Source of the DNA: Verrucomicrobiota bacterium
GTDB taxonomy: Bacteria > Verrucomicrobiota > Verrucomicrobiia > Opitutales > Opitutaceae
NCBI GenBank assembly: GCA_030601755.1
Contig: JAUWBF010000005.1
Span: 1 to 64,000, forward strand
Reading direction: 5' to 3'
Length of the DNA stretch: 64,000 nucleotides
Of the stretch, positions 277 through 12,545 are shown piece after piece; positions within the stretch are counted from its first letter, which is position 1, and the number at the start of each line of letters is the position of its first letter. Position numbers and translations under genes: made by a program. Below the pieces are notes generated by a model that was given only the letters and a program-made list of their open reading frames with translations, made no database searches and was not told where the DNA came from.

Positions 277-1134
277 TTATGGCTTGGTGAATGAGCCGTC
301 GAAGCGGTGTTGGCTGGGCACAAAAAGCCAGTGCAGGTAAGGATCGTGCCAACGGCCGCCGGGATACGTTGCCCCGGTGCTGATGCCGATATTGAACCCC
401 GCCTTGCCGGTGACCCGTTTGATTTCGGCGAGGATGTATTTGTAGAGACGCTCCTTTGCCACGGTTCGTTTGCCTGGCCCGGTTTGTCCCGGAGTGCGCT
501 CCAGGTGTTTGTTGTTCAATCGGAAGGTGGTGGAGCCGAGCACGACATCGAGCGCCTGCATGATGATATGGTCATGGGAACGCACCTCCGTGATCGCAGA
601 CTCATCCAAAATGATGCCGCCCGCGGAGCGGACGGACTTGTTGGAGGCCAGCGCGGCTAGGTAGCCGCGGAAACGCAAGACTTGCTCCCGGGTGTCTCCG
701 ATTTCGTCGAGATAGATGCGCACACGAGGTGGTTTCACGTGTGGTGGCATCAGCGTGAGGCCGAACCCGTGTTTCAGGAACTGGTAGTAAAGCAGGTAGT
801 AGCTGTCTGAAAGTTGCTCGTTGGACAGGCCCACCGGAACGCGGGCGTTTTGGGTAAACATGACGCGCATGACGGCGCGACGGGCCGCCAGTTCGTTGAA
901 GAAGGCGGAGACAAAGACTTCGTAACGCTCGACGATACCGGGGCCGACCTTCTCCCATTTGATTTCGCTGGTCAGGCCGAGGCGTGACTTGCACGCGGAA
1001 AGGTTGTGCTCCACCTCCCGCAGGTGTGTGGCGGGCACCCGCACGCCACCGTAAAAATTCGAGTAGTAACGCCCGCGTCGGTCGGATTCGTCGCAGAAGA
1101 GAGTGTATTCCTTCTCGTGGAGAGGCGTCGTCAT
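277..1134 (-). CDS. DUF3800 domain protein (RNase H-like fold), partner of the disrupted helicase
   Basis: A 285-aa protein starting at ATG. It has the DUF3800 pattern: an N-terminal FCDESD (D15, E16), a central YLDEIGD (D143, E144) and a later acidic block around E183, D188 and D196. These acidic residues form the presumed metal site of a family thought to have an RNase H-like fold; the family is frequent in mobile and defence islands, and its activity is not established. The gene begins only 13 bp after the restored stop of the upstream helicase, on the same strand, so the two were probably co-transcribed. The copy itself looks intact. A nuclease or effector role is inference. Confidence 0.82.
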   Translation of the reverse strand: MTTPLHEKEYTLFCDESDRRGRYYSNFYGGVRVPATHLREVEHNLSACKSRLGLTSEIKWEKVGPGIVERYEVFVSAFFNELAARRAVMRVMFTQNARVPVGLSNEQLSDSYYLLYYQFLKHGFGLTLMPPHVKPPRVRIYLDEIGDTREQVLRFRGYLAALASNKSVRSAGGIILDESAITEVRSHDHIIMQALDVVLGSTTFRLNNKHLERTPGQTGPGKRTVAKERLYKYILAEIKRVTGKAGFNIGISTGATYPGGRWHDPYLHWLFVPSQHRFDGSFTKP

Positions 1135-1147
1135 GAAACGAGTCGGC

Positions 1148-1330
1148 TTAATCGGGCGTGGACTGCAGAAAGTCGGACCAGGTGGTGAAGCCTTTTCCCT
1201 TATAAATTACCGCAGGATGCCTTGGCATGTTTGCTGGTAGATTGCCTTTTTTATTACACCAATCATTCCACGCGGCACCATTTTTTAAGCCTAACGAGCG
1301 AGCGAAATCACGAGCAGCTTCAAATGCTAG
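1148..1330 (-). pseudogene. C-terminal remnant of the IS-split nuclease-helicase (sixth repeat unit)
   Basis: Reading the minus strand from 1330 gives 60 residues ending at TAA: a start like LAFEAARDFARSLGLKNG, then NMPRHPAVIYKGKGF and WSDFL. This is one more copy of the repeat that fills the end of the helicase at 2897-6067. Joined to 2917 after removing one CTAG copy and the element, the frame runs through without a shift (KKF-LAF-EAARDF). The piece has no start codon of its own and is cut off from its promoter by the insertion, so it is almost certainly not expressed as a protein. Confidence 0.85.
1327..1330. repeat. Target-site duplication CTAG, left copy
   Basis: CTAG immediately outside the left inverted repeat. 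The identical CTAG is found at 2914-2917 outside the right end. Together they show that the element inserted by transposition into one CTAG. Confidence 0.88.
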
Positions 1331-1346
1331 CAGCCTGTCGGACTTA
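1331..1346 (+). repeat. IS left terminal inverted repeat
   Basis: CAGCCTGTCGGACTTA; matches the reverse complement of 2898-2913 at 15 of 16 bases. Confidence 0.88.
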
Positions 1347-1378
1347 ACGGGGAACTTCGTTTAGGGACTGGAGTCGAG

Positions 1379-2770
1379 GTGGATATGCCGAAGTTCGTCA
1401 ACATCGACCACGACACGGAGCTGCTCTTGCCGCCGAAGCTGAGGGAGTGGGTGCCGGAGGGGCACCTGGTTCACTTCGTGATGGAGGCGGTGGATCTGCT
1501 CGATGTGAGCGAAGCGTCGGTCAACCAGCGGGGGACGGGCAGCGCGCAGTATCCGCCCCGTCTGCTTTTGGGGCTGCTCGTCTACAGCTATGCGACGGGT
1601 TTGTTTTCGAGCCGCCAGATCGAGCGTGCGACCTACGAAAACGTGGCGGTGCGGCTGCTGTGCGCGGACACGCACCCCGACCACGACACGCTGTGCGCCT
1701 TTCGGCGCAAAAACGGCGCGCTCCTGCGCCGGGCCTTCGCGCAGGTGCTGGAACTGGCCGCCGGCTGCGGCATCCTGAAGGTGGGCGGCGTGACCGTGGC
1801 GATCGACGGCACGAAGGTGTTGGCCAACGCCAGCAAACACGCGGCGGTGAGCCACGGCCACGCGCAAAGCGCCCTGCGCGAGATCGACGCGGAGATCGCG
1901 CAACTTTTGGCCAAGGCCGAGCAAGCCGACTCCACGCCCCTGCAAGACGGCCTGACGATCGAGGGCGAGATTGCACGCCGCCACGAGCGCAAGGCCCGTC
2001 TTCTCAAGGCAAAGGCCGAGATGGAGGCGCGCGCGCACGCCCGCTTCCAAGCCGAGCAGGCCGACCACGAGGCCCAACTCGCCAGACGCGAAGCCGCGCG
2101 CCAAGCGGGCAAGAAGCCCCGCGGCCGCGAGCCGAAGGCGCCGGACCCCGCGCCCGGCGAGAAGGACCAGGTCAACTTCACCGACTCCGAGAGCCGCATC
2201 ATGAAGACCAAGGACGGCTTCCAACAGTGTTACAACGCGCAGGCCGGCGTGGAGACCGACTCGCGCCTGATCGTCGGAGCCCGCCTCGCCCAGGCGCCCA
2301 ACGACAAGGAACAACTCGAGCCGACCCTGGCCGCGGTGCGCGAACACGTCGCGCCCGGGCACGTGCTGATCGACAGCGGCTTCGTCAGCGAAGCGGCGAT
2401 CCGCTCCGTCGAGCGACCCGACCCGAAGCGCGAAGGCGAGAGCCCGCGCGTATTAGCCGCGGTGATACGCGAACGCCACGGCCGCACGATCGAGCAGCTG
2501 GAGAAACGCGAGGACCCGCCGGCGCCGCCGCCGGAGGCGCCCTTCACCGAACACCTCGCGCATCGCACCGCCACCGCCGCCGGCCGCGCCCTCTATCGCT
2601 TGCGCCAACAAACGGTCGAGCCGGTCTTCGGCATCATAAAATCCGTGCTCGGCTTCCGCCGCTTCATGCTGCGCGGCCTGGCCAAGGTCTCGCTCGAATG
2701 GGACCTGGTGTGCCTGGCCTACAACCTCAAACGCCTACACCGTCTCGACGCCCGCCTGCGACCGGCCTGA
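1379..2770 (+). CDS. IS1182-family DDE transposase
   Basis: A 463-aa protein, start GTG 1379 (an ATG two codons later, at 1385, is equally possible). The N-terminal domain has LLPPKLREWVPEGHLVHFV and YSYATGLFSSRQIERATYE, then PDHDTLCAFRR, all typical of IS1182/IS5-like transposases. Catalytic signatures are AIDGTKVLANASKHAA (first Asp), LIDSGFVSEAAI (second Asp) and QQTVEPVFGIIKSVLGFRRF (Glu region). A basic, charged insert of about 110 residues (roughly 165-270) separates the first two. Full length and uninterrupted. It catalyses cut-and-paste movement of the surrounding element. Confidence 0.93.
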   Translation: MDMPKFVNIDHDTELLLPPKLREWVPEGHLVHFVMEAVDLLDVSEASVNQRGTGSAQYPPRLLLGLLVYSYATGLFSSRQIERATYENVAVRLLCADTHPDHDTLCAFRRKNGALLRRAFAQVLELAAGCGILKVGGVTVAIDGTKVLANASKHAAVSHGHAQSALREIDAEIAQLLAKAEQADSTPLQDGLTIEGEIARRHERKARLLKAKAEMEARAHARFQAEQADHEAQLARREAARQAGKKPRGREPKAPDPAPGEKDQVNFTDSESRIMKTKDGFQQCYNAQAGVETDSRLIVGARLAQAPNDKEQLEPTLAAVREHVAPGHVLIDSGFVSEAAIRSVERPDPKREGESPRVLAAVIRERHGRTIEQLEKREDPPAPPPEAPFTEHLAHRTATAAGRALYRLRQQTVEPVFGIIKSVLGFRRFMLRGLAKVSLEWDLVCLAYNLKRLHRLDARLRPA

Positions 2771-2896
2771 CACCGACCGGCGGTGTCGCCACCCGCGCCA
2801 TCACCGCCTTCCGCCCGCCTCGCCCGACACCAAATTCCCCTCATCCTCCCTCCATCGCCCTCCTCATCCCTCTCCCCCTTCCTTCTCGCAAAAAAC

Positions 2897-5800
2897 CTAA
2901 GCCCGACAGGCTGCTAGAAACTTCTTTTCAAATGGAGCGATGTTACCAGTGCCCAACCAATCACCCCATCCTTTCCACTGCTCTCGGTATGCATTGGCTG
3001 GGTGTCTCGGGATATCTTTGGGTCTGGGCTCTTTGTCGGAGAACTCACCTTTAAGGTAACGGGCCCATTCCGTTGAGCTGGCTAGATTTAAATTGTGAAC
3101 GAAATCTCGGGCAGAAAGGAAGTCCCTGAAACGTTTTTTGACCGTGGCGCGTTTCGGTAATTCAACTCCGAGCCATGCACTCCAGTTAAAGTCATCCAAT
3201 GCGTATGCATTGCTAGGATACCGCGGGATGTCGTCTGGGATGGCTGCGTGACCACCGAGCTGACCCTTTGTGTATTTTACCCACTCGCCGTGTGAGCTTA
3301 GGCCAAGCGAACTTACAAATGCGCAGGCTTCATGGTATGGTCGGTAGGATTTTTTTCTTATAGGTATATTGCCGCTTCCAAGCCAATCCCCGTATCCGAG
3401 CCAGCCATGATCTTGATAATAGTGTTCAGGACCAGCAGGCACCCCCGCTAGGCGTGGAGGAAGGTGAGGCAATTTGCCTTTGCAGTATTGGCGCCAAGCC
3501 CTCTGTCCAGTGAGCTTTAAGCTCCTGGCAAACTCACGAGCTTCAATGAAGGGGAGTAATTCGGCTCCGTCATTACGCATTCCGAGTGTTGCTTGTTCTA
3601 GACCCAACCAATGAGCCCAATTTACCCAGCCCTTATTGCGATATGCCTGCGGTGGGTTTCGTGGAATGTTTAAAGGTAGTGGCGGCTTTCCGAGGATGCC
3701 TTGGCGTGCATAAAGTCGCCATTCATCTCCAGTTTTTAAACCTAGTGCCGAAGCATATGCCCTAGCTTCGTCATAAGATAAGATCACTTTCCTAGTCGCG
3801 GGTCTCCGAAATCCGATAAAGTCACCCCAATCAATCCAGCCTTTACCCTCATAAACACTATATGGGGCAAGTGGTATATCGCGGGGAATTCCGCCTGCTT
3901 TCCAAATTTTCACCCAGTCGGTGGACTTGGTAATGCCGCTTTGACGAGCCCACTCACGAGCCTCCAGAAAGGGCCGCCATTTAAGCTTCGCAATTTTCTC
4001 CCAACAACGAACCTCAATGTAGTTCGCAAACTCTTCTGCGCTTACATCAAGCGGCATTACTCCCGTCATATCGAACTTCACCAAGCCGCCGACTTCCGGC
4101 GTCCGACCTTCGGCTGTGGCGCGGAACCATTCGATGATCCGTTCGTCGTGGGTGGCCAATGCGCGAAGGACGAGCAGTATGAATTTGAAGGCACTACTTT
4201 CTGCAATCTCAACGGGAGTCGATCCATCCGGCACCACTAGTGGCAGCAGAATATAGCCGAGTTGTTTGCCCGATTTCGGGTCTAGTCGCAGAGCCCTGCC
4301 GGAGGCTTGGACGATGTCGATGGTGCTGCCCTTCGGGTCGGCGAAAAAGACGCAGTCGATGCCGGGCACATCCACACCTTCGGTCAGGCAGCGGGCGTTG
4401 GTCACCAGCGACGGAGTGGCTTTGAGAAAGGCATCCAGCTCACGCTGCCGGGCGGCGCTGCCCATCTTGCCCGACACGTGATAGGCGGCGATCGGTGTTT
4501 CCGCAGTGAGGTGCTCGTTGAGTTTGTTGCAGAGTTCGCGGAAGCGGGAGGCGCGGGCGATGCTGCTGTGAAACGAAACGGTGTGCTTCACCCCGTGGCG
4601 CTCAGTGGCACGGCGAAGCGCAATCAGGCTGGCGAGAGCCAGGGCGGTGACCTCGTCCAAGTCATCCGGACCAAGATCGAGCCAACGATTGTTTTCCACC
4701 AAGGCCCGCACTTCAGATTCGCGCACACCGATGGTGAGCAGACGGTAGTCGCAGAGAATCGGATCGGCGGCGTCGATGGCGGCCTTGAAGGTGAGCAGGT
4801 CGATGGTCTCGCCGTAGAGCGCGGGGTCGTCCATCGAAACAATGTCGTCGGAACGGTTGGAGGCGAAGCGGCGTTCCGTGGCCGTCATGAACAGGCGGCG
4901 AGGCAGCGGCAGGTTGTCGTTGTGGAGGAGATGGGCGTAGTAGCTGGAGGTTTTGCCGGTGGTTTTGTGGGCCTCGTCAAACACGGCAAAGTCGAAGTCG
5001 GTCTCGGCGGCCCGCGCGGCTGTGGAGAGGACGGGCGAACTTTGATACGTGGTGAGCACGACCAGCAGACCGGGGTTGCTCCGGGTGGTGCGGAGGTGGT
5101 CAGCCAGCTTTTCAGGATCGGTATCGCAGGGGATGCCGAGCTCATGGACGTGGGCGATCAGAGCCTCGTTATCCATGTCGGCGACCTCATCATCGCTGCA
5201 CACACAAAGCCAGTCTACGGCGCGGGAGTCAGCGACGGCCTCGGTCATCCATGTCTCCAAGGTCTGGCGGACGAGCGCGAGACTGGGCACCGCTATCAAG
5301 ACGCGTCGCGCATCCAGTTCCCTGGCGATCCAGTAGGCGGTCAGACTTTTCCCGGAACCGCAGGGATGGAGCAACTTGCCGCGCGTTTGTGCGGGTTCGG
5401 TGTAGTAGGCGACGGCAGCGGCGATAGCCTTGGTCTGATGTTTGCGTGGCGAGCGCGGGTTAATGACCGGCGGTGTGGAGTCGGCTGCCTGCGCAGTCAG
5501 GGAGACAAAAAACTCGGGAGGAAGCGTGGTCCACGTTTCCGAGGTGATGTCGCCGATGTTGCCGAGACCTTGGAGAATACCCGGGATGCGCGAGGTTGTG
5601 GTGCAGACGAGGGCGAAAGAGATTTCCCGGCAGATCGTGAATGACAGGGAGGTGAAGGTGGAGAGCTCACCGAACGTCAGCGAGGAGGCGACATCGCTAC
5701 GATATTTGGCCTGTATTGACCAAAACTCGCCCGAGTGGGTGCGAGCGATCATGTCGATGCCCGTGTCTCGTGGCGGCAGGTTTAAGCGGCTGCGGACATC

Positions 5801-6067
5801 TGCGGGAACATCGTAGTCAAACCAAACCTCGGCCAGCTTGGTGCGGTAGGTTGGCTCCCAGCGCAGATAGTGGCGCACGACGTGGGCGAAGGCGGCGCCT
5901 TGTTGCGTGGTGTCGGGAAGCGTGGCCACAGCGGCGGTGAACTCTTCCCAACATCTGACGGATGCAAACTCGACGGGTAAAGGCACGTGCGGAGAAAAGG
6001 TAATGTCATCTGATTTGGCAAGTTGCCGACGTGTCGCAGTGATCTGCCAACGCCTTTTTTGACACAA
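2897..6067 (-). CDS. Nuclease-helicase with C-terminal integrase-type repeats, truncated by IS insertion
   Basis: A 1,056-aa frame on the minus strand. Residues about 35-160 form a restriction-endonuclease-like domain (D105 in TGIDMIA, then the QAKY core with K121). Residues about 205-600 are a superfamily 2 helicase: Walker A HPCGSGKS (234-241), DEAH (364-367), MTATE (394-398) and the motif V/VI run EGVDVPGID to QASGRALR. From about 699 come five repeats of roughly 60-70 residues (EAR.FA..L.L....W..Y, then IPR.P..AY and W..WLG), matching the phage-integrase repeat unit. The last residues (AACRA) come from the IS; the true end lies at 1148-1330. The TTG start at 6067 falls in the upstream terminator's T-run, so GTG 5986 is more likely. 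A DNA-targeting defence role is inferred. Confidence 0.85.
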   Translation of the reverse strand: MCQKRRWQITATRRQLAKSDDITFSPHVPLPVEFASVRCWEEFTAAVATLPDTTQQGAAFAHVVRHYLRWEPTYRTKLAEVWFDYDVPADVRSRLNLPPRDTGIDMIARTHSGEFWSIQAKYRSDVASSLTFGELSTFTSLSFTICREISFALVCTTTSRIPGILQGLGNIGDITSETWTTLPPEFFVSLTAQAADSTPPVINPRSPRKHQTKAIAAAVAYYTEPAQTRGKLLHPCGSGKSLTAYWIARELDARRVLIAVPSLALVRQTLETWMTEAVADSRAVDWLCVCSDDEVADMDNEALIAHVHELGIPCDTDPEKLADHLRTTRSNPGLLVVLTTYQSSPVLSTAARAAETDFDFAVFDEAHKTTGKTSSYYAHLLHNDNLPLPRRLFMTATERRFASNRSDDIVSMDDPALYGETIDLLTFKAAIDAADPILCDYRLLTIGVRESEVRALVENNRWLDLGPDDLDEVTALALASLIALRRATERHGVKHTVSFHSSIARASRFRELCNKLNEHLTAETPIAAYHVSGKMGSAARQRELDAFLKATPSLVTNARCLTEGVDVPGIDCVFFADPKGSTIDIVQASGRALRLDPKSGKQLGYILLPLVVPDGSTPVEIAESSAFKFILLVLRALATHDERIIEWFRATAEGRTPEVGGLVKFDMTGVMPLDVSAEEFANYIEVRCWEKIAKLKWRPFLEAREWARQSGITKSTDWVKIWKAGGIPRDIPLAPYSVYEGKGWIDWGDFIGFRRPATRKVILSYDEARAYASALGLKTGDEWRLYARQGILGKPPLPLNIPRNPPQAYRNKGWVNWAHWLGLEQATLGMRNDGAELLPFIEAREFARSLKLTGQRAWRQYCKGKLPHLPPRLAGVPAGPEHYYQDHGWLGYGDWLGSGNIPIRKKSYRPYHEACAFVSSLGLSSHGEWVKYTKGQLGGHAAIPDDIPRYPSNAYALDDFNWSAWLGVELPKRATVKKRFRDFLSARDFVHNLNLASSTEWARYLKGEFSDKEPRPKDIPRHPANAYREQWKGWGDWLGTGNIAPFEKKFLAACRA
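2898..2913 (-). repeat. IS right terminal inverted repeat
   Basis: Plus strand TAAGCCCGACAGGCTG, the inverted partner of 1331-1346. It supplies the premature stop (2897-2899) that ends the interrupted helicase frame. Confidence 0.88.
2914..2917. repeat. Target-site duplication CTAG, right copy
   Basis: CTAG directly outside the right inverted repeat, duplicating 1327-1330. Confidence 0.88.
2918..3973 (-). repeat. Integrase-type protein repeat array (five units; sixth at 1148-1330)
   Basis: The coding DNA holds five degenerate repeats of about 180-210 bp encoding the pattern 'EAR.FA..LGL....EW..Y..G....P.DIPR.P..AY....W..W.DWLG'. Copies begin near 3973, 3800, 3570, 3350 and 3140 and run toward lower coordinates. 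They are related in protein but diverged in DNA. This stretch is visibly richer in A+T than the neighbouring core genes, which suggests horizontal acquisition. Confidence 0.75.
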
Positions 6068-6095
6068 AAAAGCCCCGGCTATTTTTTGCCGGGGC
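6066..6095 (-). terminator. Rho-independent terminator after sufT
   Basis: On the minus strand a perfect 8-bp GC stem (GCCCCGGC with GCCGGGGC, 8-nt loop) is followed by six T. It lies 15 bp after the sufT stop and ends that unit; the TTG start of the helicase frame falls in its T-run. Confidence 0.88.
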
Positions 6096-6110
6096 GCAAG
6101 GGGTGTGAAC

Positions 6111-6653
6111 TCAGATCAAGCCGAGCTTCATCTTCCCTTCTTCGGAAATCATGGACTGGTTCCAGGCCGGCTCCCAGGTGATGCGCACGTCGGCGGCGCT
6201 GACGCCGGGGACGAGGAGGACCTTGGTCTTGGCGTCCTCGGCGATGGCCGGGCCCATGCCGCAACCGGGGGCGGTGAGGGTCATGGCGACGTCGACCTTG
6301 TAGCCGCCATCTTCCTTGAGGATGTCCATCGAGTAAACGAGTCCGAGGTCGACGATGTTCACGGGGATCTCGGGGTCGTAGACTTTCTTGAGCTGGTCCC
6401 AGACGGCCTCCGGGTCGGGCGCGCCGTCGGCGGTGGTGGCGGCGCTGACGGTGTCGTTGACGACTTCCTCGCCGAGTGCGTCGGCGTCCTTGCCGTCGAT
6501 GCGGTAGAGGCCGCTGTCGGTCTGCACGGTGTAGGTGCCGCCGAGGACTTGGTGGATGAACACCTTGGTGTCGGCGAAGAGCGTGTGCTTGTCACCGGAC
6601 GGGATCTGGGTGGCGACGACGTCGCGGGAGAGGGAGCGGTCTTTGGAGGACAT
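6111..6653 (-). CDS. sufT: SufT-type Fe-S cluster assembly protein (DUF59)
   Basis: 180 aa. Residues about 82-178 are a DUF59/MIP18 domain, with YDPEIPVNIVDLGLVY and the conserved cysteine C131 in TLTAPGCGMGPAIAEDA. The extra N-terminal domain (SRDVVATQIPSGD..., residues 8-60) is the one found in the SufT family rather than in short DUF59 proteins. SufT proteins help maturation of iron-sulfur clusters in the cytosol. No other suf genes are adjacent; the gene stands alone between two strong terminators (6066-6095 and 6656-6687), so it has its own promoter, which must overlap the end of the upstream terminator. Confidence 0.88.
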   Translation of the reverse strand: MSSKDRSLSRDVVATQIPSGDKHTLFADTKVFIHQVLGGTYTVQTDSGLYRIDGKDADALGEEVVNDTVSAATTADGAPDPEAVWDQLKKVYDPEIPVNIVDLGLVYSMDILKEDGGYKVDVAMTLTAPGCGMGPAIAEDAKTKVLLVPGVSAADVRITWEPAWNQSMISEEGKMKLGLI

Positions 6654-6655
6654 GA

Positions 6656-6687
6656 TGAAAAAAGAGGACTGCGCGTGGCAGTCCTCT
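6656..6687 (-). terminator. Terminator after the pgmB-phosphorylase operon
   Basis: A perfect 10-bp stem (AGAGGACTGC with GCAGTCCTCT, 5-nt loop) followed on the minus strand by TTTTTT. It ends 2-3 bp before the sufT ATG and terminates the upstream sugar operon. Confidence 0.88.
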
Positions 6688-6726
6688 ACAAGAGCTGATT
6701 TTGCCCCAAGCTCAAGCGACCATCCG

Positions 6727-7398
6727 TCAAAACGGAAGGCCCGCCGGTTTGAGGAGCGCGTGCAGTCCGGGAATCACGAACTCGGCGGCTCCTAGGATGG
6801 CCGGATCACCGATGCCGACGGCCTTCATGCCGGCGCGATGCGCGGCCTCGATGCCGGCCTCGGCGTCCTCGTAGACCACGCAGTCGGCGGCCTGGAGTCC
6901 GAGCCTGGTCGCTCCGAGCAGGAACACCTCGGGATCGGGCTTGGCTTTGGCAACGTGGTTGCCGTCGACGATGGCGTCGAAGAGCCCGGTGATGCCGAGG
7001 CTGTCGAGGATCATGGGGGCGTTCTTGCTGGCGGAGCCGAGGGCGATCTTCACGCCGTCGGCACGGAGCTGACGCAGGTAGTCGGCCGCGCCGGGCAGGA
7101 TCTCCTCGGGGCCCATCTTGGAGATGAGCTCGACATACCAGGCGTTTTTCTTGGTCGCCAGTTCGACGCTGCGTGCCTCGTCAAACTGGAGGCCGCCGAT
7201 CTCAAGGAGGATCTCCAACGAACGCATGCGGCTGACGCCTTTCAGGCGCTCGTTGTGGGCCTCGGTGAACTCGAAGCCCAGCTCGGCGGCGAGGCGACGC
7301 CATGCCTGGTAATGGAAACGCGCGGTGTCGACGATGACCCCGTCGAGGTCGAAGAGCGCGCCGCGGGCGGAAGTGATGAAGGAGGGAACGGGTTTCAT
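6727..7398 (-). CDS. pgmB: Beta-phosphoglucomutase (HAD superfamily)
   Basis: 223 aa from ATG 7398, which overlaps the phosphorylase stop as ATGA, so translation is coupled. HAD motifs: FDLDGVIVDT (nucleophile D17 and acid/base D19), GSASKN with the conserved Ser and Lys, and VYEDAEAGIEAA for magnesium. The cap region LKGVSRMRSLEILLE carries the substrate loop typical of beta-PGM. It converts beta-glucose 1-phosphate to glucose 6-phosphate, exactly the product expected of the neighbouring GH65 phosphorylase. Ends at the terminator 6656-6687. Confidence 0.94.
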   Translation of the reverse strand: MKPVPSFITSARGALFDLDGVIVDTARFHYQAWRRLAAELGFEFTEAHNERLKGVSRMRSLEILLEIGGLQFDEARSVELATKKNAWYVELISKMGPEEILPGAADYLRQLRADGVKIALGSASKNAPMILDSLGITGLFDAIVDGNHVAKAKPDPEVFLLGATRLGLQAADCVVYEDAEAGIEAAHRAGMKAVGIGDPAILGAAEFVIPGLHALLKPAGLPF

Positions 7399-9698
7399 GC
7401 GTGAACGGTGTTGGCGAGGGCGATGTCGAGGGTTTGGCCGGGCGCGCAGATGACGTCCTGGCCGGCCACGGTGAAGTCCGCGGAGCCGGCGTTTTGCGCG
7501 TCGGCGGTGAGCTTGACCGAGTCGGGTGTGATCGAGGCGGTGAACCAGCGGCCCGACCATGCGAAGCGGAAGGCGAGGCGGGTCCACTTCTCGGGCAAAT
7601 GCGGCGTGAGCGTCATGCGTCCGTCGAGCAGGCGCAGGCCGCCGAAACCGAGGACCGCGGCCATCCAGGCGCCGCCGTTCGCGGCCGGGTGGGTGCCGCC
7701 GATGTAGAGCGGACCGATGTATTGCTTGGACTTGCCGGTGAGGTCGATGGTGGCGGTGCGCAGGAAGTATTTGTAGGCCCACTCGGTGCGGCCCAGCTCG
7801 GCGGCGAGGAGCGCGTAGACGCACGGGCTGAGGCTGGAGCCGTGCTCGGTGCGCGGTTCGTAGTAGTCCCAGTTGGCGCGCTTGATGTCCTCGGAATACT
7901 CGCCGGAGAACAGGTGCAGCATGAGCACGACGTCGGCCTGCTTGATGACCTTGGTGGTGGTCGCGAGGCCGTGTCCGCCGCCCCAGTATTCGGTGGGGTG
8001 CAGCATGCGTTTCTTGAGCTCGTCGGGAGTGGAGTCCTCGAGCTTGTGGTAGCCGGTGAACTGCTCGATGACGCCGGTCACGGGGTCGGGCTCCGGGCGG
8101 TGGAGCTTCGCATCCATATCGCGGATACGCCCGAGGTCGGTGAGGAAGTCGAGACGTCCGATCAGCTCTTCGACGACGGCGGGACGTTCGCGGGAAAGCA
8201 GGTCGACGGTGTCGAGCGCGATGCGCAGCGTGGCGGCCACCATGGCGGAGGTGAACGCGTTGTTGTCGACCCGCTCGTGGTATTCGTCGGGGCCGACCAC
8301 GTCGAGGACCTCGTAGCGGTCCTTCTCGGCCTTGAACCAGGCGTAGGAAACGAAGAAACGAGCGCATTCCAGGATCACCTCGGCGCCTCCGTCGACCAGC
8401 ACGGAGAGGTCGCCGGTCTGCCGGTAGTGACGCCAGATGGCGAAGGCGACGTCGCCGCTGATGTGCACCTGCTTGTCGCGGAAATGGGTGCGCATGGGAC
8501 GGCCGGTGTGGACGTCGGTGACGTTGAAGTGCGAGCAGGCGTCGTCGCCGGTCTCCTGGCTTTCCCAGGCGTAGAACGCGCCGCGGAAACCGTATTCGGC
8601 GGCCTTGCGGCGGGCGCCGTCCAGCGTGTGGTAGCGGTAGCGGATCAGGTTGCGCGCAAGCTCCGGCAGGGTGTGGTCGAAGAACGGCAGCATGAACATC
8701 TCGGTGTCCCAGAAGATGCCGCCCTTGTAGACTTGGCCGGACAGACCGCGGGCGGGGATCGACTGGCGGTCCGACTCCGGCGCGATGATGAGCAGGTGGT
8801 AGATACTGTAGCGGAGCGCCAGCTGGGCCTCCTCGTCGCCCTCGATGGTGACGTCGGCCGAAGCCCAGCGATTTTGCCATTCGCGGCCGCTGTCTTCGAG
8901 CAGGGCGTCCCAGCCCTCGAGCGACGCGGCGCACGCGGCCTCGGTGGCGGCGGGGAGGGGATCGCCCGCGCCGTCGCGGCCGGTGAAAAATGCGACGTAG
9001 CGCTCGATCGAATACTCGACGCCCGCCTCGGCCTCGAGGGAAAGGCGGCGAATGACGCGGTTGTCCTCGAACGAAATCTCCGCGTTGTCCAAGCCGGACG
9101 AGCGGGTGAGGGCGGCGACGCAGACCGGCACGTCGAGCTCATGGGTGCGGGCGGCAAGCACGTCGACCTCGCGGTCGCCCTGCGAGGCAAACGCGGTCAG
9201 GTGCGGGCCGTTGATGTCCCAGACCTGGCCGTCAATGGAGGTCTCGATGACGATGTGGCGGGCCTTGGATGAGCTGACCGAAAACCGCATGGCGCCGACA
9301 TGGGTGTCGGAAAGGCTGAGGAATCGCTCGGAACGAACACTGACCGTGTCGCCGTCGCCGAGGAGGAAGGTGGTCTCGCGGTGATGAACCGAGCGGCTCA
9401 GGTCGAGTTGCTGGCAGTGGTTGGCAATCTCGGTTGAGAGCGCGGAGAGCGGTTGGCCGTCGACGAGCACGCGGACGGTGAAGGGGGAGGGGGCGTTGAC
9501 CGGCTCGCGCCAGAGGTCGCCGACCTGATCGTAGAGGCCCGCGAGGGTGCAGGCGACGAGTTCGGGGGCACCGAATTCCTCGAGGGTGCCGCGGACGCCG
9601 AGGCGGCCGTTGCCGATGATGAACTTGCTGCCGTTTTTGGCGACGTCTTCGGCGACGAAGCCGTCTTGTCGGATGCTCCAGGCGGAGTGGGTTTTCAT
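7395..9698 (-). CDS. GH65 disaccharide phosphorylase (maltose/kojibiose/nigerose type)
   Basis: 767 aa starting at MKTHSAWSI; the frame extends upstream but no better start is seen. GH65 signatures: GGIFWDTEMFMLPFF (about 327-340), the catalytic Glu E472 in VVGPDEYHERVDNN, and KQADVVLML near the phosphate site. These enzymes split an alpha-glucosidic disaccharide with phosphate into glucose and beta-glucose 1-phosphate. Which disaccharide is used cannot be read from motifs alone. The coupled pgmB gene takes the sugar phosphate into glycolysis, and a LacI-type regulator is divergent. No signal peptide, so it acts in the cytosol and needs an importer encoded elsewhere. Confidence 0.92.
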   Translation of the reverse strand: MKTHSAWSIRQDGFVAEDVAKNGSKFIIGNGRLGVRGTLEEFGAPELVACTLAGLYDQVGDLWREPVNAPSPFTVRVLVDGQPLSALSTEIANHCQQLDLSRSVHHRETTFLLGDGDTVSVRSERFLSLSDTHVGAMRFSVSSSKARHIVIETSIDGQVWDINGPHLTAFASQGDREVDVLAARTHELDVPVCVAALTRSSGLDNAEISFEDNRVIRRLSLEAEAGVEYSIERYVAFFTGRDGAGDPLPAATEAACAASLEGWDALLEDSGREWQNRWASADVTIEGDEEAQLALRYSIYHLLIIAPESDRQSIPARGLSGQVYKGGIFWDTEMFMLPFFDHTLPELARNLIRYRYHTLDGARRKAAEYGFRGAFYAWESQETGDDACSHFNVTDVHTGRPMRTHFRDKQVHISGDVAFAIWRHYRQTGDLSVLVDGGAEVILECARFFVSYAWFKAEKDRYEVLDVVGPDEYHERVDNNAFTSAMVAATLRIALDTVDLLSRERPAVVEELIGRLDFLTDLGRIRDMDAKLHRPEPDPVTGVIEQFTGYHKLEDSTPDELKKRMLHPTEYWGGGHGLATTTKVIKQADVVLMLHLFSGEYSEDIKRANWDYYEPRTEHGSSLSPCVYALLAAELGRTEWAYKYFLRTATIDLTGKSKQYIGPLYIGGTHPAANGGAWMAAVLGFGGLRLLDGRMTLTPHLPEKWTRLAFRFAWSGRWFTASITPDSVKLTADAQNAGSADFTVAGQDVICAPGQTLDIALANTVHA

Positions 9699-9774
9699 GG
9701 TGAAACGCGGTGAAGGTGCAGGGGGGGCGTGCCGGCGAACCAACGCGGAATTGAAATCGACTCCAAGGGGCGGA

Positions 9775-10818
9775 ATGCGCATGCATATGCGCAAAATGGG
9801 AAACCGCGTGTTGATGACCGACATCGCCCGGCGTCTGGGCGTGCATCAGACCACGGTTTCGCGGGCCTTGAGCGATCACCCGCGGATCGGGCGGGAGCTG
9901 CGCGGACAGATCAAGCGAGTGGCCGCGGAGATGGGTTATGCGCCGGATCCGCACCTGCGTGCGCTCGCCAAGTATCGCGCCCGGAGCAAGGCCCCGGAGT
10001 TTCGCGGGCTGCTGGGGTGGTTGACGAATTTCGAGACGCGCGACGGGTGGCGAGTGCACGAGAAGTTGTCGTATTTCAAAGGCGCTCGCGAGCGGGCCAA
10101 GGAGCTGGGCTACGACTTGGAGGTCTTTTGGCTGCGCGAGCCGCGACTGCGCGTGGAGCGGTTGGGGCGCATCCTTACGGCGCGCGGGATTCGCGGGGTC
10201 TTGTTGCCTCCGCAGCCGGTCGCCGGCACCAAAATCGCGCTGCCGTTGGAGGGGCTGGCGGCGGTGTCGTTCGGTCACTCGCTGGTGGAGCCGGATGTGC
10301 ACGTGGTGCATCACCACCACTACCGTTCGATGCAGCGCTTGTTGGCCGAGTTGGAGGGGCTGGGTTATCGGCGGCCCGGGCTGGCGTTGGCCGAGCATTT
10401 TAACCGCAGTGTCGGCGGCATGTGGTCGGCGGCCTATGCAGATGACTGCCAGTCGAAAGGACGCAAACCGAGGTCGCTCATGGTCGGCGAGTGGCGTCCG
10501 GAGCCATTGATGCAGTGGATGGCCAAGGCGAAACCCGACGTGGTGGTCAGCGAGGATGCGCGCGTGCTGGAGTGGCTCAGGCAGGGTGGTGTGCGCATTC
10601 CGGAGCAGTGTGGCTTTGCGTTGACCGCCCGGCATCCGGGCCATCCGGACTGCGCGGGGATCGACGAAAACAGCGAGGTGGTGGGCGCGGCGGCGGTTGA
10701 TCTGCTCACCAGTCTGGTGGAGCGCGGGGAGACGGGATTGCCGAAGCACCCGATCAACTTGCTGGTCGAGGGCACTTGGAGCCCCAAGGGCGAGACGGTG
10801 CGTCGGACGATTGCTTAA
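9775..10818 (+). CDS. LacI-family transcriptional regulator
   Basis: Up to 347 aa. The LacI helix-turn-helix is MTDIARRLGVHQTTVSRALSDHPRIG, followed by a hinge helix and a periplasmic-binding-protein-like sensor domain. ATG 9775 has a good Shine-Dalgarno (AAGGGG) but a palindrome covers codons 1-6; ATG 9796 or the ATG of MTDIA are alternatives that match usual family length. It is divergent from the GH65-pgmB operon with 76 bp between starts, so it most likely controls that operon in response to a sugar. The sugar is unknown. Confidence 0.9.
   Translation: MRMHMRKMGNRVLMTDIARRLGVHQTTVSRALSDHPRIGRELRGQIKRVAAEMGYAPDPHLRALAKYRARSKAPEFRGLLGWLTNFETRDGWRVHEKLSYFKGARERAKELGYDLEVFWLREPRLRVERLGRILTARGIRGVLLPPQPVAGTKIALPLEGLAAVSFGHSLVEPDVHVVHHHHYRSMQRLLAELEGLGYRRPGLALAEHFNRSVGGMWSAAYADDCQSKGRKPRSLMVGEWRPEPLMQWMAKAKPDVVVSEDARVLEWLRQGGVRIPEQCGFALTARHPGHPDCAGIDENSEVVGAAAVDLLTSLVERGETGLPKHPINLLVEGTWSPKGETVRRTIA
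9776..9793. promoter_or_regulatory. Candidate LacI-type operator palindrome
   Basis: TGCGCAT and ATGCGCA form a perfect 7-bp inverted repeat around a 4-bp centre, in the divergent control region between the phosphorylase and regulator genes. It overlaps the upstream candidate start of the regulator. Role as the operator is inferred from position and symmetry. Confidence 0.45.
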
Positions 10819-10925
10819 ATTTCGATCGGCTCGAAGGGGCCGTCGAAGCCTTATTAAATTGTCGCAGGGAGTTTACCGTGGTGACTTGCGGAGTCTGGGG
10901 GCACGTTCGATGCTTTGGCACTGAC

Positions 10926-12545
10926 ATGGCACGCCTTCAAAAGCTTTCCGGACAGATCGTTGACCTGCACAATCGGGAAGTGTTTCCCGGTGTCGTCGAG
11001 TGGAGCGATGGACGTATCACCGCCATCCGTCGGGACAAGACCGTGAAGGAGAAGACCCTGATCATGCCCGGCCTGGTCGACGCGCACATCCACATCGAGA
11101 GCTCGCTGCTGGTCCCGTCGGAGTTCGCGCGGCTGGCGGGTGTGCACGGCACGGTGGCCACCGTGTCCGATCCGCACGAAATCGCCAACGTGCTCGGCGA
11201 GGCCGGCGTGAAGTTCATGCTGGCCGACGCCGCGCGCTCGCCGCTCAAGTTCAATTTCGGCGCGCCGTCCTGCGTGCCGGCGACGACGTTCGAGACCGCC
11301 GGCGCGAAGCTCGACGCGAAGGCCGTCGCCCGTCTGCTGAAGCGCCGGGACATCCGCTACCTCGCTGAGGTGATGAACTTTCCCGGCGTGCTCGGCGGCG
11401 ACCCCGAACTCGCCGCCATGATCGCCACCGCCAAGTCGCTGGGCAAACCGATCGACGGCCACGCGCCCGGTCTGCGCGGCGAACAGGCGGCGGCCTACGC
11501 CGCGGCCGGACCGTCCACCGACCACGAGTGCTTCACCGAGGCCGAGGCGCGCGACAAACTCGCCGCGGGCATGAAGATTCTCATCCGCGAGGGTTCGGCC
11601 GCGCGCAACTTTGACGCGCTCAAACCCCTGCTGCTGACCGACGCCGACCGCTGCATGTTCAGCTGCGACGACCTGCATCCCGACCTGCTGGTGCGGCGCC
11701 ACCTCGATGAACACGTGCGCCGCGCGCTCAAAGCCGGCGCAGACCGCTTCGACACGCTGCGCTGCGCGTCGGTGAATCCGGTTGTTCACTACGGTCTCGA
11801 TGTCGGCCTGCTGCGCGTTGGTGACCCGGCGGACTTCATCGTGGTCGACGGCTGGCGGCGGTTCGGCGTGCTCGCCACCTACATCGGTGGTGCCTGCGTG
11901 GCGAAGGCCGGCCGCACCCGGTTGCCGCGCTTGGCGACCAAGCCCGTCAACAAGTTCAAGGCCCGCCCGGTCAAGCCGTCCGACTTTGCGGCGCGCGCCG
12001 CCGGCGAGATGCTCGACGTGATCGAGGCGCTCAACGGCCAGCTCGTGACCAACCACCTGAAACTCCCCGCGGCCGATGTCGGCGTGAAGTCCGACGTGCT
12101 CAAAATCGCCGTGATCAACCGCTATGCGACCAAGGCGCCGGTGGCCGTGGGCCACGTGAAAAACTTTGGTCTCAAGGCCGGCGCCATCGCGTCTTCGGTG
12201 GCGCACGATTCGCACAACATCGTGGCGGTCGGCGTCGTCGACGACGCCCTCTGCGCGGCGGTCAACGCCGTCATCGCCGAAAAGGGCGGGCTGGCGGTGG
12301 TCGACGCGCGCGGCCGCGCCACCGTGCTGCCGTTGCCGGTGGCCGGCCTGATGTCGGACCGCGAGGGCCGCTGGGTCGCCAAGCGTTACACCGAGATCGA
12401 CCGCAAGGCCAAGGCGCTCGGCTCGAAGCTCGACGCGCCGTTCATGACGCTCTCGTTCATGGCGCTGCTGGTGATTCCCGATTTGAAGCTCAGCGACCGC
12501 GGCCTGTTCTCGGCGGCCAAGTGGGGTTTCGTGAATACCGCCTGA
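10926..12545 (+). CDS. ade: Adenine deaminase
   Basis: 539 aa. Amidohydrolase metal motif MPGLVDAHIHIESS near residue 55, followed by EFARLAGVHGTVATVSDPHEIANVLG and SCVPATTFETAGA, all diagnostic of the bacterial adenine deaminase family; DGHAPGL and STDHECFTE supply further ligands. The C-terminal domain contains SVAHDSHNIVAVG. Full family length. It hydrolyses adenine to hypoxanthine and ammonia for purine salvage. The purine permease at 30229 may serve the same pathway but is 18 kb away. The LOG gene starts 17 bp downstream on the same strand and is probably co-transcribed. Confidence 0.95.
   Translation: MARLQKLSGQIVDLHNREVFPGVVEWSDGRITAIRRDKTVKEKTLIMPGLVDAHIHIESSLLVPSEFARLAGVHGTVATVSDPHEIANVLGEAGVKFMLADAARSPLKFNFGAPSCVPATTFETAGAKLDAKAVARLLKRRDIRYLAEVMNFPGVLGGDPELAAMIATAKSLGKPIDGHAPGLRGEQAAAYAAAGPSTDHECFTEAEARDKLAAGMKILIREGSAARNFDALKPLLLTDADRCMFSCDDLHPDLLVRRHLDEHVRRALKAGADRFDTLRCASVNPVVHYGLDVGLLRVGDPADFIVVDGWRRFGVLATYIGGACVAKAGRTRLPRLATKPVNKFKARPVKPSDFAARAAGEMLDVIEALNGQLVTNHLKLPAADVGVKSDVLKIAVINRYATKAPVAVGHVKNFGLKAGAIASSVAHDSHNIVAVGVVDDALCAAVNAVIAEKGGLAVVDARGRATVLPLPVAGLMSDREGRWVAKRYTEIDRKAKALGSKLDAPFMTLSFMALLVIPDLKLSDRGLFSAAKWGFVNTA

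Follow-up and report, generated by a model that had tools for sequence, protein, structure and literature searches.

According to two reports (PMC4872093, PMC7049714), the Type ISP enzymes LlaBIII and LlaGI consist of an Mrr nuclease, a superfamily 2 (SF2) ATPase, a coupler, a methyltransferase, and a recognition domain, and the latter describes for LlaBIII a translocation followed by cleavage when two enzymes converge. In this study, we analyzed a stretch of 64,000 nucleotides (nt) from a Verrucomicrobiota bacterium (contig JAUWBF010000005.1, positions 1 to 64,000; hereafter, the window), which carries an open reading frame (ORF) of 1056 amino acids (aa) at 2897-6067 on the minus strand, with the Pfam domains Mrr_cat_2, ResIII, and Helicase_C followed by repeats. 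This gene and its relatives probably encode Type ISP-derived restriction nuclease-translocases, in which an array of ~71-aa INT_rpt-like repeats replaces the coupler, the methyltransferase, and the recognition domain and would set the target.

The window protein resembles LlaBIII and LlaGI in that a single chain carries an N-terminal Mrr nuclease and an SF2 motor, whereas it is without the coupler, the methyltransferase, and Type_ISP_C and has the repeat array instead; because these defining domains are absent, it was not filed as Type ISP. Mrr-helicases with HA repeats (PF03457) have the same core and a C-terminal array of 8 or 11 units of ~67 residues; however, profile comparison revealed no similarity between these units and the window-type repeats (probability of 0.2), and the identification of the repeats as HA repeats was rejected. 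Proteins with INT_rpt (PF14882), namely GmtZ/VPA1269-type integrases and the helicase/HNH proteins of genome G194, have a homologous repeat, whereas they carry Integrase_2, other helicase, or HNH-like domains, and their units are near 55-66 residues instead of 71. The repeat unit of transcription activator-like effectors (TALE) has ~34 residues. The present arrays are like TALE in their similar modules, few hypervariable positions, varying number, and apparent module exchange, but their units have 71 residues and four predicted short helices, and are not known to follow a base code; they were not filed as TALE because the repeat unit differs. HsdS and other restriction recognition domains are known to be exchangeable on a conserved enzyme. 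Here too, the enzyme is conserved and the putative recognition part exchanged, although that part is a long array of small units, of which inner units are exchanged. No description of this architecture was found in the open full-text literature, a scope that left subscription papers and preprints mostly outside.

Results

The Mrr_cat_2 nuclease domain (PF13156, 46.4 bits with a cut-off of 22) occupied residues 70-161 (5585..5860, minus strand), and a motif scan found the nuclease motif GID...QAK at residues 103 and 119. The following SF2 helicase-type motor (4283..5449, minus strand) comprised ResIII (residues 207-398) and Helicase_C (residues 496-595), and Walker A, DEAH, and motif VI were all found in it. 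LlaBIII aligned to residues 54-644 with an E value of 1.9e-51, LlaGI also matched, and the PADLOC model for type IIG matched the core. The nuclease and motor motifs were found in all six members inspected. By these matches, the core is Type ISP-like, with an Mrr nuclease and an SF2 motor.

In the Pfam scan of the window protein, the coupler (PF22240), Integrase_2, and Phage_integrase gave no match at E<=1, and no N6 methyltransferase domain (N6_Mtase), Type_ISP_C recognition domain (PF18135), or HA repeat was found. ISP_coupler, N6_Mtase, and Type_ISP_C were also missing from the five other members scanned (G429, G012, G161, G495, and G125). Both canonical relatives, L084 and L086, contained the coupler and the methyltransferase, and Type_ISP_C was present in L086, not in L084. 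The repeat array occupies the place of the coupler, the methyltransferase, and the target-recognition domain.

Five complete repeats follow the helicase core (residues 697-1050, window 2918-3979), behind a linker of the motor to the array (3980..4282, minus strand). With a profile built from 19 repeats of other loci, every window row being excluded, repeat 1 (residues 697-761, 3785..3979), repeat 2 (residues 762-836, 3560..3784), repeat 3 (residues 837-907, exactly 71 residues, 3347..3559), repeat 4 (residues 908-979, 3131..3346), and repeat 5 (residues 980-1050, together with one or two initial residues of repeat 6, 2918..3130), all on the minus strand, scored 48.1, 68.3, 80.0, 57.2, and 80.1 bits, respectively. 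A sixth repeat is split by an insertion sequence (IS); its remainder, with the former C-terminus and stop, was recognized from the translation of 1151..1327 (minus strand, 65.8 bits). The six real units scored 48.1-80.1 bits with this window-free profile and the best of 200 tail shuffles 5.9 bits, so that the repeats are not a chance feature; the preliminary description, which had counted six repeats after the helicase core including the split one, was correct on this point.

The preliminary description had also named the unit an integrase-type repeat used outside an integrase. Checked directly, PF14882 gave 15.0 bits (E=0.03) with the window protein, below its gathering score of 26.5. Among seven scanned core-bearing members, the score was above the cut-off in three (G429, G012, and G161) and sub-threshold in the window and L037 (23.6), and no match at E<=0.1 was obtained for G495 and G125. 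The family link was made via relatives and profile-profile comparison: hhalign against repeats passing PF14882 (ten G194 repeats from two proteins with 221 and 74 bits) gave a probability of 96.7 and an E value of 4.6e-10, and the repeat unit also occurs on an Integrase_2 protein adjoining gmtY and gmtX (gene names taken from annotations). These comparisons support membership of the repeats in the INT_rpt superfamily. Use outside an integrase applies to the window protein, which has no integrase domain, although it is less unusual than supposed, as such arrays are also found on SF2 helicases (G194 and viral contigs).

Fourteen further core-bearing members were found, making 15 with the window, L037, and G429 included, and their repeat numbers were 4, 4, 5, 5, 5, 6, 6, 6, 7, 7, 7, 8, 9, 10, and 12. 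The spacing was mostly 71 residues with exceptions of 62-72, and varied more widely in the window and L037. Of 387 genomes searched in the phylum, 10 had the repeats, as did 10 of 147 in the order of G125 (which is counted in the phylum too) and 3 of 8, 1 of 2, and 1 of 6 in the families of G161, G495, and G012, respectively, with the centre genome included. In a core tree, the 15 repeat-tailed cores formed one clade (100/99). The nearest relative of the window gene was L037 from a Verrucomicrobia bacterium. The contig-truncated G646 was excluded from the tree and the core comparisons, and G541, contig-truncated without a core, was used in the repeat statistics only. The tree has caveats in the long branches of G391 and Rhodococcus and in the odd composition of L037; its 'ISP' group was mislabelled at G391, which has 11 HA repeats, without effect on the one-clade result. 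HA repeats were present on the same kind of core in G391 and in a Rhodococcus plasmid protein (8 repeats). The core has therefore been joined to at least two unrelated repeat tails, and the unrelated HA repeats of two relatives suggest that recognition-like modules can be swapped at the tail position.

Within this clade, cores and tails diverged to different extents. Between the window and L037, the amino acid identity was 84.4% over 539 residues of the core and 43.9% in the tail, and sliding identity placed the break near residues 675-700, in the last third of the linker. The proportion of synonymous differences (pS) was 0.51 in the core and 0.80, i.e., saturated, in the tail. In agreement with this break, the guanine-plus-cytosine (GC) content at third positions changed along the gene, from mostly 68-86% in the core to 36-52% in the repeats in the window and from mostly 72-100% to 36-58% in G429; in L037, it was 46-58% around repeats 1-2 and then 80-89%. 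In G125 and G625 (7 vs 9 repeats), the core identity was 91.0% and that of the arrays 54.2%; in G161 and G703 (12 vs 10 repeats), the values were 83.8% and 48.7%.

The congeneric genomes G125 and G607 had cores of 93.8% nt identity. Their repeats 1, 2, 5, 6, and 7 were 96.8, 94.7, 96.3, 94.7, and 98.9% identical in nt, respectively, whereas repeats 3 and 4 were 64.6 and 69.8% identical, close to the 55-68% of non-corresponding repeats. The identity dropped near position 60 of repeat 2 and returned near positions 58-68 of repeat 4, both breakpoints being in or near the conserved GDWLGTG linker. Judged from this alignment, the difference is a replacement of two adjacent inner modules. The donor of these modules was not found, the best matches being 64-70% in nt. 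In G161, some non-adjacent repeats were the most alike (repeats 2 and 11, 94%; repeats 7 and 12, 95% nt), which is compatible with internal copying. A tail that simply evolves fast was rejected, as the tail, unlike the core, had saturated synonymous sites and the break between G125 and G607 was sharp. Taken together, these alignments support a modular exchange of the tail, as whole arrays (window/L037) and in pieces (G125/G607), in agreement with the modular tail with repeat shuffling suggested in the preliminary description; the DNA recognition that it also suggested for the tail is putative.

Subsequently, the positions that vary within the unit were considered. The entropy within arrays (36 repeats, five arrays) peaked at positions 23, 45, 46, 43, 67, and 42, and near-identical repeat pairs differed at position 23 in seven of eight cases and at position 45 in five of eight. 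In 17 pairs with at least 84% nt identity, which share repeats and hence are non-independent tests, the ratio of nonsynonymous to synonymous differences (pN/pS) was 1.32 at positions 23, 42, 43, 45, and 46, picked with the tested arrays included, and 0.22 elsewhere; pS was comparable (0.283 at the five sites, 0.277 elsewhere). When G012, G125, and G541 alone served for an independent ranking of the sites and the 17 pairs of G161 and G495 served as the test, pN/pS was 1.09 vs 0.24 for the top eight, a pN reached by 25 of 5000 random sets, and 0.85 vs 0.23 for the top ten, reached by 7 of 5000; sites 42 and 45 ranked 11th and 12th. Paralogous repeats differed at the five sites in 163 of 210 comparisons and at the remaining sites in 975 of 2436, whereas orthologous repeats of G125 and G607 differed in 1 of 25 and 13 of 290, respectively. 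Variable sites conserved between orthologous repeats are the pattern that would be expected of specificity residues, unlike free drift.

A three-repeat AlphaFold2 model (13 rows) had a predicted local distance difference test score of 86 and a predicted template modelling score of 0.42, so that the confidence is per repeat. In the first unit, helices were predicted at 4-13, 19-26, 44-48, and 56-60, and the other units were alike; the second helix bears sites 19, 20, and 23, whereas 45-46 and 56 lie where the third and the fourth helix begin, respectively. In BFVD, one match had an E value of 2e-6, and the next were giant-virus SF2 helicases (E 5e-3 to 4e-2, low TM-scores). The isoelectric points of the tails were 9.7-10.5 in all six members and those of the cores 5.8-9.5.

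The interruption in repeat 6 was an IS1182-family element (1327..2917, plus strand) with CTAG at both ends, found as one copy in the genome. Its terminal inverted repeats of 20 nt (1327-1346/2898-2917) were 95% complementary, and its transposase (1379-2770, plus strand) matched NF033551 with 342 bits (cut-off, 270). Repeat 6 starts at 2918, is broken by the element, and resumes from 1327 down to 1151 (minus strand), reading AFEAARDFARSLGL..., and the present ORF terminates in six residues that the IS end encodes. Because the element splits the sixth repeat, the window copy is truncated; it retains the nuclease, the motor, and five repeats, and may be altered or inactive. A DUF3800 protein (277-1134, minus strand) lies directly downstream of the interrupted gene and matches the PADLOC candidate PDC-M04A (E 1.6e-19).

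Further features were noted at other loci. In L037, the relative of the window gene (7993-10950, plus strand) has most of the Mrr domain missing, and its first residues resemble another frame, so that it is damaged or misassembled; the same locus encodes a RecD2-like helicase (3545-6937, plus strand) with an apparent intein-sized insertion in the motor domain, as judged by eye. A protein matching the BglII-type endonucleases (PF09195, 31.8 bits) is encoded at L075:10669-11172 (plus strand), divergent from the 12-repeat gene of G161. In G194, an SF2 helicase with three INT_rpt units (L042:5858-9681, plus strand) is followed by a second, overlapping ORF, which has more INT_rpt units and, at its C-terminus, an HNH-like stretch that scores below the cut-off. 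The coreless four-repeat protein of G143 (L039:5875-7769, plus strand) overlaps at its start with an upstream ORF whose family is unknown. On the viral contigs L090, L091, and L094, such repeats were observed in fusion with SF2-helicase-like ORFs, with a Pfam helicase call in L091, a weak one in L094, and none in L090, and L091 has four neighbouring repeat-bearing ORFs. A single ORF with eight repeats was present on a 379-kb viral contig (L092:2-1651, minus strand), and a 485-kb uncultured phage (L088:2128-3909, plus strand) has five repeats, sub-threshold for the Pfam INT_rpt profile, behind an unannotated N-terminal part. Scans of viral contigs with the window, the G161 array, and the L082 protein gave nothing new.

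Discussion

We infer for these proteins DNA binding, specificity, translocation, cleavage, and a role against invading DNA. The basic array would bind DNA, and in each repeat the variable residues, located around 23 and at 42-46, would set the target; this binding would license the SF2 motor, and the Mrr nuclease would then cut, with invading DNA as the substrate. The choice of target would shift by swapping whole arrays or single modules. Several observations weigh against a restriction enzyme of this kind. Both sampled members of the window branch are damaged, the window by the IS and L037 by being without the nuclease domain. The PF14882 score of the window protein is under the cut-off, the top five of the independently ranked sites are weak (0.55 vs 0.29, with 277 of 5000 random sets as high), and an N6_N4_Mtase lies near 2 of the 15 loci in a motif and homology scan. 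Furthermore, no solved structure resembles the model (Foldseek and VIA-align vs PDB).

A more specific form of this explanation, a natural and modular DNA-address system on a restriction motor, is possible, although less likely than not. Each 71-aa repeat may recognize a short stretch of fixed length by its residues near 19-23, 42-46, and 56. An array of 4-12 repeats would then specify a sequence so long that the host does not contain it, and no methyltransferase would be needed; lineages would re-aim the enzyme by exchanging one or two modules. If true, this would be the protein-coded analogue of a change of guide.

The repeat-tailed gene has no consistently linked methyltransferase. PF02384 was found on the gene's own contig in 0 of 14 genomes and was absent anywhere in the genome from 3 of 14 (G607, G625, and G612). 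A modification-dependent, Type IV-like enzyme, whose array reads modified bases or unusual DNA structure, would explain this solitary gene, and type IV models matched the motor weakly. We nevertheless consider it unlikely, since no recognized modified-base reading domain was matched by Pfam in the window or the other members scanned, although the array itself might be a reader of a new kind, and a reader of one modification has no obvious need for many modules with differing, then conserved, variable positions.

An ordinary restriction-modification enzyme, protected by a methyltransferase next door or elsewhere in the genome, is suggested by the PF02384 proteins somewhere in 11 of 14 carrier genomes and by N6_N4_Mtase genes at two loci, at a distance of ~1.7 kb in G625 and of 3.3 kb in G596, where a fragment of a methyltransferase also closely follows the repeat-tailed gene; some members may therefore be such pairs. 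However, no nearby methyltransferase was found at 13 of 15 loci, many of which have short flanks, and that of G625 does not track the gene: neither G125 nor G607 has it, and it occurs in G573, a genome in which the repeats were not found. A methyltransferase would also need to follow each array change, and this explanation seems unlikely.

It is very unlikely that the array serves as a scaffold for proteins or RNA, with a variety that follows these other partners and a motor that acts on DNA irrespective of sequence. As no solved structure matches, a DNA-binding fold was not recognized; a search of solved structures by repeat profiles also gave nothing. The repeat occurs on viral-contig SF2 helicases and stand-alone proteins as well. 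Nevertheless, the tails are strongly basic, the position of the array equals that of the Type ISP recognition domain, and the repeat occurs on an integrase and adjoining a sub-threshold HNH domain. That the protein instead assists a mobile element or recombination, as the INT_rpt units on the Integrase_2 protein beside gmtY and gmtX might suggest, is highly improbable, since the core is a restriction nuclease-motor and no recombinase was recognized beside full-length members in the neighbour lists, in which most neighbours were read by eye and not scanned.

If the array of the putative Type ISP-derived nuclease-translocase reads DNA, the family would represent a restriction motor of natural origin whose target recognition is modular. 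This would bear on changes in the specificity of restriction enzymes and on their existence without a linked methyltransferase. The arrays of G125 and G607, differing mainly by two inner modules, make the question of DNA recognition directly testable. A swapped tail may let bacteria change which DNA the enzyme attacks.
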